DNA of 14,621 nt, from NCBI GenBank assembly GCA_947466165.1, contig CANIDW010000010.1, positions 1 through 14,621 of the forward strand, written 5' to 3'. Source of the DNA: Comamonadaceae bacterium. GTDB lineage: Bacteria; Pseudomonadota; Gammaproteobacteria; Burkholderiales; Burkholderiaceae_C. The translations under genes and the position numbers were made by a program. Shown in pieces: positions 5,894 through 7,294 of this stretch; position 1 is the first letter of the stretch, and every line of letters begins with the position of its first letter. The notes under the pieces are model-generated. The model worked only from the letters and a program-made list of their open reading frames with translations. It was not told the origin of the DNA and made no database searches.

Positions 5894-7294
5894 TCACCCG
5901 AGCTTCGGCTTGAAAGGGTTTCGTCGCTCCAGCGCCTGCATGTAGCCGGCGATACCTTCTTCCTCCCGGGCCAGAAAGCGCTCAACGGCATCGGCAAAAG
6001 AGGGATGTGCCAGCCAGTGGGCGCTGGTGGTCTTGACGGGTAACAGGGCCCTGGCCATTTTGTGTTCGCCCTGAGCGCCGCCCTCAAAGCTGTCAAAACC
6101 ATTCGCGATACACCATTGCAAGGGCTGGTAATAGCAGGCCTCAAAGTGCAGGCAATCGACCCGCTCTAATGCACCCCAGTAGCGCCCGTAAGCGGTTTTT
6201 TGAGCGTTTTGATCCCCTGTGCTCAGTGCAATGAGACTGCAGGCCATGGGCTTAGCCTCGCGCTCAGCCACAAACATAAGCCAGTTTTCCTGCATCTGGC
6301 TGGCCATCAGCTCAAAGAAGTTGCGGCTGAGGTAAGGGGCATTGCCATGCTCGAGGTAAGTGCGCTCGTAGCAGCGGTAAAAAAAATCCCAATCCGCCGT
6401 GGTGATGTCTGCAGCGCGTTTTGTGCGGAAAACCAAACCGGCCTCAGTTACCTTGCGCCGTTCCTGGCGGATTTTTTTCCGCTTTTCCTGATTCAGCGAA
6501 CCCAAAAAATCCTCAAAATCTTTGAATCGAGTGTGCGTGGGGGGCAGCGCAGTACGCGCAGCGACAAGCGTGGGGGCCACAGTCTGCAGCGACGGGCCGC
6601 CCCTAGCCAAGACAGCCCCCTCGGGGGGCAGCGCAGTACGCGCAGCGACAAGCGTGGGGGCCACAGTCTGCAGCGACGGGCCGCCCCTAGCCAAGACAGC
6701 CCCCTCGGGGGGCAGCGCAGTACGCGCAGCGACAAGCGTGGGGGCCACATTCTTCCAATGGAATTGCACGGTGTGGCGCAGCATCAGGCCTGCTTCAGCG
6801 CAGGCGGCAATATCGGCTTCGTGGCCGAATAGCAAATGCAGCGATGACAGCTTCTCACTTTCGCACCATGCCATCAGTGCCTTGACCAGCAGCACCCGTG
6901 TGGCGGCATCTTTGGCCAAGAGTCGCGGGCCAGGCACGGGGGTGAAGGGCGTTGCCACCAAAGCCTTGGGGTAATAGGCCAGGCCATGCTGCTGGTAGGC
7001 GTTGGCCCAGGCCCAGTCAAAAACGTACTCGCCGTAGGAGTGCGACTTCAGGTAAAGAGCACACGCGGCCACCAGCCGGGTGCCGTCGTAAAGCGCCATA
7101 AAACGTGGCGTCCAGCCGGTGTCCGGGACGGCGCTGCCACTGGCCTGCATGGCTGTCAGGTACTCATGGCGCATGAAAGGATTGAGTGCCCCGGCAGGGT
7201 CTTGTTGTGCCAGCAATTCGTTCCATTGAAGGCCATCCATCGCTTGTGGGCTGTCCAGCACCCGAATGACATAATCGTCTGGCTTGTTTTTCAA
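5894..7294 (-). CDS. GNAT/FemAB-like N-acyltransferase (COG3146-type) with in-frame repeat insertion
   Basis: A 466-residue protein of the 'peptidoglycan biosynthesis/recognition' GNAT-like family (COG3146, DUF482). Recognisable segments are LKSHSYGEYVFDWAWANAY (about 82-100), FEDFLGSLNQEKRKKIRQERRKV, AYGRYWGALERVDCLHFEACYYQ and FEGGAQGEHKMARALLPV near the C-terminus. The substrate is unknown. The start is a TTG at 7294 with GGGA about nine bases upstream; no ATG lies upstream in frame, and the first internal ATG would remove 18 residues. Residues 183-252 are five alternating 14-residue blocks from the 84-bp DNA repeat; without them the protein would be 396 residues, close to the usual family length. 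The block falls between QFHWKN and THTRFKDFEDFL, two parts that are near neighbours in homologues as I recall them. Frame and flanks are intact, so the protein may be functional. Confidence 0.88.
   Translation of the reverse strand: MKNKPDDYVIRVLDSPQAMDGLQWNELLAQQDPAGALNPFMRHEYLTAMQASGSAVPDTGWTPRFMALYDGTRLVAACALYLKSHSYGEYVFDWAWANAYQQHGLAYYPKALVATPFTPVPGPRLLAKDAATRVLLVKALMAWCESEKLSSLHLLFGHEADIAACAEAGLMLRHTVQFHWKNVAPTLVAARTALPPEGAVLARGGPSLQTVAPTLVAARTALPPEGAVLARGGPSLQTVAPTLVAARTALPPTHTRFKDFEDFLGSLNQEKRKKIRQERRKVTEAGLVFRTKRAADITTADWDFFYRCYERTYLEHGNAPYLSRNFFELMASQMQENWLMFVAEREAKPMACSLIALSTGDQNAQKTAYGRYWGALERVDCLHFEACYYQPLQWCIANGFDSFEGGAQGEHKMARALLPVKTTSAHWLAHPSFADAVERFLAREEEGIAGYMQALERRNPFKPKLG
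6539..6749. repeat. Tandem 84-bp GC-rich repeat, 2.5 copies, inside a coding sequence
   Basis: Identical units start at 6539, 6623 and 6707 with a period of exactly 84 bp; the third is cut after 43 bp. I see no mismatch between copies. The structure is A-B-A-B-A, with A of about 43 bp and B of about 41 bp. GC is about 74%. Each copy junction carries a perfect hairpin GCCCCC-TCG-GGGGGC (6615-6629 and 6699-6713). As 84 is divisible by three, each unit adds 28 codons to the minus-strand gene (VAPTLVAARTALPP then EGAVLARGGPSLQT). The unit has no stop in four of six frames; the other two are closed by its single CTAG. The sequence style recalls GC-rich dispersed intergenic repeats of Comamonadaceae, but this is from memory. 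No other copy is seen in the window. Confidence 0.97.

Follow-up and report, generated by a model that had tools for sequence, protein, structure and literature searches.

Introduction

The closest described systems are small palindromic repeats that are read as parts of bacterial proteins. Rickettsia palindromic elements (RPEs) are, in the available text of two reports (PMC2229807, PMC10969869), dispersed palindromic repeats of 105-146 bp that lie in frame inside conserved Rickettsia proteins. In the accessible part of PMC2229807, an insert in guanylate kinase is stated to leave the activity in place and to change the substrate affinity. Intragenic REPs of the GTAG/CGTC kind, as far as the available text of PMC3733652 describes them, form clusters coding for 43-82 residues in Thauera and R. 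conorii, occupy about the same recB site in two Xanthomonas species, and occur in UvrA, the UvrD/REP helicase, DNA ligase and tRNA synthetases; the same text reports GTGG as a variant of GTAG. A term search of that text did not find Burkholderia, Acidovorax, Polaromonas, Rhodoferax or Variovorax.

Here we describe an in-frame tandem array in a FemAB_like gene of a Comamonadaceae bacterium. The kind of system is already known, and the element is different from the RPE. We consider it highly probable that a dispersed, RPE/REP-like mobile palindrome, apparently non-autonomous, has expanded locally in tandem to form the array and is tolerated in an inter-domain linker.

Results

The window (the whole stretch of DNA analysed, 14,621 nucleotides) is contig C10 of a 1.98-Mb MAG that consists of 343 contigs and is 74% complete. 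The host gene, on the minus strand at 5894-7294, encodes a protein of 466 amino acids assigned by Pfam to FemAB_like (PF04339, E 1.3e-128); the match consists of two stretches, the better of which begins past the array. Comparison with homologues divides the enzyme into a first half with QFHWKN as its last residues (residues 1-182; 6749-7294, minus strand) and a second half (residues 253-466; 5897-6538, minus strand). Between them, according to the translation and frame check, the element supplies 70 codons (residues 183-252; 6539-6748, minus strand), which separate QFHWKN from THTRFKDFEDFL and leave the frame intact. Read on the plus strand, the array runs through half-unit A (6539-6581; small hairpin and GTGGGGGC end), half-unit B (6582-6622; variable arms around GGGCCGCCCC), a second A (6623-6665), a second B (6666-6706) and a third A (6707-6749). 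These half-units were delimited by the repeat search, together with covariation for the first A and B and exact comparison for the third A. Tandem Repeats Finder reported a period of 84 with 2.6 copies and 99% matches at 6539-6753; in the repeat search of the window the two 84-nt copies are 100% identical and the third is identical over its first 43 nt, and 6539-6665 is exactly equal to 6623-6749. Four of the six frames of the array are without stops and the remaining two have two stops each. The initial annotation, which had described two and a half identical 84-bp units in the order A-B-A-B-A, in frame, stop-free in four of six frames and adding exactly 70 residues between QFHWKN and THTRFKDFEDFL, is accurate on all these points, the last also by comparison with empty homologues (linkers of 0-17 residues, with the one exception described below). 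Elsewhere in the window, a 21-bp unit is repeated twice (80% matches) at 2253-2293, within the minus-strand ORF 444-2489.

The copy number of the array is uncertain, because the MAG is divided into 343 contigs, the exact repeat extends over 127 bp and the contigs of two relatives (L056 and L065) end inside the array. The short contigs of the MAG and the truncated arrays of these relatives might suggest an assembly artefact, or the gene might be a pseudogene; we regard either as very improbable, since independent genomes, including the one-contig G063 and G074, are filled at the same codon, and the dN/dS is low in both halves of the gene. Measured against L057, L058 and L156, for which synonymous change is close to saturation, the first half has a dN/dS of 0.10-0.12 and the second one of 0.04-0.06. 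Both halves are under purifying selection.

The AlphaFold model of the protein is weak (mean pLDDT 57.9, pTM 0.39, 4 sequences) and other parts are also below 50; in this model residues 172-254 have a pLDDT of about 25 and no secondary structure, and lie between two folded parts. The best PDB matches of the model are FemX, with a TM-score of only 0.24-0.26 by query length; the PDB sequence search returned no match. FemX has two GNAT-like domains. In our enzyme the linker would be situated between two GNAT-like parts, and the peptide is predicted to be, most likely, a loop without structure that hardly affects catalysis.

Two hairpins, A and B, make up the unit as a mosaic; their arms vary between copies yet stay complementary. 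The full unit has the order B then A: variable arm, GCC-GGGCCGCCCC-AA, complementary arm, CCCCCTCGGGGGGCAGCG, small hairpin and AGCGTGGGGGC; the array of the window lacks the first B, since it starts with A. In hairpin B, 4.78 of 6 bases pair at positions 3-8 of the arms (114 distinct arm pairs), against a mean of 2.77 and a maximum of 3.16 in 2000 shuffles, and 2.07-2.54 with the arms shifted against each other by one or two bases. In the small hairpin of A, 4.52 of 5 bases pair (44 distinct 18-mers), the shuffled maximum being 3.50. Folded as single-strand DNA, 6570-6665 does not exceed dinucleotide shuffles in stability (z 0.12), therefore the hairpins rest on covariation and not on energy. 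Of the proposal that the copy junctions form hairpins, the covariation in both hairpins supports the hairpins themselves, but an excess of folding stability over shuffles did not appear. Tandem spacing in named records is 81, 82 or 84, thus 84 is not universal. The ends of the element are only roughly mapped; the right end is commonly GTGG, accompanied by a mild base preference (A 42% at position 3; T 42, 49 and 39% at positions 4, 6 and 7) that is partly fitted by FemAB codons.

As had been suggested, the unit was searched in the source genome and its relatives, and it proved to be dispersed. Pieces of the array match 17 places in its own MAG, 16 of them outside the window. Among 41 sampled genomes, the array query matched 24 of 25 from the genus, the window's included, and none of 16 from other families of the order. 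When one unit of a Xenophilus record served as the query, a related unit was found in 142 of 160 genomes of the family (122 of 133 genera), with 1 to 196 first-look candidates per genome. A pattern scan of named genomes gave at least 117 stretches with at least 128 copies. By record title, the stretches listed comprise 73 from Comamonadaceae, 10 from Burkholderiaceae and 12 from other Burkholderiales, besides 2 from Desulfovibrionaceae, 1 from Rhodocyclaceae and 19 without rank; genera with cultured members, Variovorax, Acidovorax and Comamonas, are represented among the hosts. Phage records gave no match to the element, and plasmid records two partial ones (Acidovorax and Variovorax, 54-57% of the query covered). 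Rfam returned no match within 6400-6900 at E up to 1. In the open-licence literature, the only kind covered, the element family was not found: the four longer element strings are absent, and the shortest occurs by itself in 13 papers that seem, from their titles, unrelated. The perfection of the tandem copies would suit a minisatellite born of slippage within the gene itself, but the dispersal of the unit across genome, genus and family, together with the single 84-bp copies at the FemAB site, leaves this origin barely credible.

The same site was compared in 143 homologue loci, of which 139 rows were readable and 138 distinct (the window occurs a second time as L048); L056 and L065, which carry the element but are cut by contig ends, are outside the 139 rows. 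The homologue set includes the best 110 of 140 listed matches, 109 of them usable, the 30 weakest having been left out; L080, L156 and L184 were reached by way of the element and are not an unbiased sample. Element scores are bimodal, with 26 rows (25 distinct) at 50 or above and 113 rows at 22 or below. Thus defined, the element lies at the same codon junction, in a single orientation and as about 0.5 to 3.5 units, in 25 of the 138 distinct homologues, the window included. Besides the window, 13 of 26 are filled in the genus sample and 8 of 108 in the family sample; the further three filled ones are those found through the element. The junction NNN-GCCCCCACG is exact in 24 of 26 rows, the exceptions being L057, with a substitution, and L273, with a one-base difference. 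The 113 unfilled rows have linkers of 0-17 residues, except L267 (79 residues of another repeat). The element score was run in one orientation; a reversed full unit was not missed, because L267 has the only unfilled linker above 17 residues. In L267 (G094) the linker is an in-frame array of a different palindromic repeat, of the ATTCCCGCG...CGGGAAT type. In the FemAB linkers of L050, L052 and L059 a third hairpin module (CGGCCCGGCAAAGCCGG type) occupies the place of B, and in L052 and L055 an element-like peptide is found at a second point of the protein, between SLIAVSAG and an AYGRYWG-like block.

The filled homologues span nine genus codes, the window's included; filled named records come also from Hydrogenophaga, Polaromonas and Xenophilus, which may overlap the nine. 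The initial annotation had held that homologues in many genera with the same 70-residue stretch at this place would refute its reading, and this is borne out in part: the same codon is indeed filled across these genus codes, but with versions of their own and not with the same residues. Its suggestion of possible copy-number variation is supported, as to length, by the nearest homologues, L057, L058 and L156, with linkers of 14, 37 and 42 residues against 72 in the window. The filled/empty pair L253/L258, two members of one well-supported group of four, differs by exactly 84 bp. Recurrence at one site in many homologues could also mean that the insert is a useful domain under selection, such as a length-tuned linker. 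We find this very improbable, since filled linkers range from 14 to 97 residues (exactly 28 in L184, L253 and L255), about half of the same-genus homologues do without the insert, and its sequence follows the DNA repeat.

The history of the site was followed on a flank tree of 134 rows, 24 of them filled, from which L048 (the window again), L054 and rows outside the length rule were dropped. The filled/empty state changes at least 16 times on the tree, and 8 of the changes are forced by starred branches. One old insertion in a Comamonadaceae ancestor, inherited, often lost and with units turning over, would dispense with repeated insertion; it agrees with the one orientation of all 25 distinct filled rows, with the exact junction common to 24 of 26, with L067, which resembles a decayed remnant, and with the clustering of the filled rows on the tree (shuffled labels average 22 changes, and 0 of 500 shuffles are as low as the tree). 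Such a history is quite conceivable, though on balance less than probable: one gain needs 34 losses, compared to 17 events if gains alone are allowed, the insert subtypes differ widely, and L267 holds a different repeat at the same place. We favour repeated gain at the FemAB site with some loss. The array had also been described as a recent expansion; this fits the tandem state, which looks recent, but not the insertion at the site, which is old or recurrent according to the filled homologues in several genera.

The element also resides in other conserved proteins. Among the copies listed, 11 of 128 lacked a recognised right end and were dropped, and merging of tandem neighbours left 109 places; at 72 of these the frame is open over 40 or more residues to either side. 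The GC3 filter passed 55 of these 72 open frames to the Pfam scan, which found matches flanking or spanning the element in 28; Pfam prints the better of two stretches, so that in some cases the other side is inferred. With the FemAB gene of L156, at least 29 of the 109 listed places are in frame inside conserved proteins, and at least one further case that is likely to be real was lost to the filter: L106, whose peptidase-like frame (named by eye) runs on through the element. The element strand that is read is one in 17 of the 28 Pfam cases and the other in 11. The proteins include RrnaAD, a class I tRNA synthetase, NAD-dependent DNA ligase, UvrD, a UvrA-like protein, a RecQ-type protein (two records), a biotin carboxylase with a methylcrotonyl-CoA carboxylase domain, PEP carboxylase, glycine dehydrogenase and a SIS/glutamine-amidotransferase protein (GlmS-like). 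In L335 (G144:C28:272507-273010) six tandem 84-bp units add 168 residues in frame to an 884-aa ORF, of RND efflux type as judged by eye. Together with the dispersion in genome, genus and family, these in-frame copies uphold the initial suggestion of an RPE-like repeat tolerated within proteins. Genes fill most of a bacterial genome, hence a quarter to a third of copies in genes would mean purging.

RAYT (PF01797) was considered as the mover and rejected: none of the 30 PF01797 loci listed, 21 of them in the genus, has the element within up to 1.5 kb on each side, while the same flank scan, as a positive control, located 17 clusters of the element among 110 FemAB loci. PF01797 is present in 32 of 33 genus genomes, with exactly one match in 24; G022 has PF01797 and no element match at threshold. 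The 77 single copies show no target-site duplication, a feature of MITEs; the longest string shared by their flanks has a mean of 2.38, compared to a shuffled mean of 2.00 (maximum 2.70), and none is of 7 or more. An origin of the left arm by copying of the target was also considered, and the L253/L258 pair argues against it, the arm being within the 84 bp gained.

Discussion

We propose that the element moves as a DNA hairpin, by some enzyme, and that insertions into genes are mostly purged. Copies in genes would survive if the unit length is divisible by three, no stop interrupts the frame and the insert falls in a flexible linker; slippage, or recombination of the direct repeats with each other, may then add or remove steps of 28 residues. 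A bolder version, possible but rather doubtful in our judgement, is that a mobile hairpin with its own mover extends over Burkholderiales, has its arms rewritten yet complementary, re-enters one FemAB codon junction in many lineages and steadily adds new segments of 28 residues, which can grow to six units, to conserved and even to essential proteins. This steady supply would result from the absence of stops in several frames and from a length that is frequently divisible by three.

The best-known protein-coding palindromes are those of Rickettsia, and other repeats have given scattered cases; the element of this study, a different one, occurs in free-living Burkholderiales. The fact that some hosts have cultured members makes the absorption of repeat DNA by proteins, the neutrality of the inserts and the agent that moves them open to experiment. 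The element is also an annotation hazard, because peptides derived from it recur in unrelated proteins.

The element is filed here neither as an RPE nor as a REP, because the length and host of RPEs, the RAYT flanking and a target-site duplication are not found with it. It shares features with several small repeats. The likeness to ERIC/RU and other small elements is that a small repeat is read as part of a protein, while ERIC, in the available text of PMC2229807, is enterobacterial and 127 bp long. With REP-RAYT/BIME systems, as described in the accessible part of PMC2817692, it has in common the palindromic structure, the high copy number and the mosaic of alternating modules; the RAYT gene is flanked there by two REPs, in contrast to the 30 PF01797 loci listed here. 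Like the intragenic REPs in the available text of PMC3733652, the present element is found in UvrA, UvrD, NAD-dependent DNA ligase and class I tRNA synthetase, but a clear GTAG or CGTC tag is not seen in it; the GTGG conserved at its right end may be a form of GTAG. Its likeness to the RPEs is that both are dispersed palindromic repeats inserted in frame in conserved protein genes. In the text available on them, RPEs are elements of 105-146 bp and of Rickettsia, a host absent from the at least 117 stretches listed here (95 from Burkholderiales, 19 unranked and 3 others), whereas the present element is an 84-bp, GC-rich unit of two covarying hairpins that forms tandem arrays, mostly in Burkholderiales.
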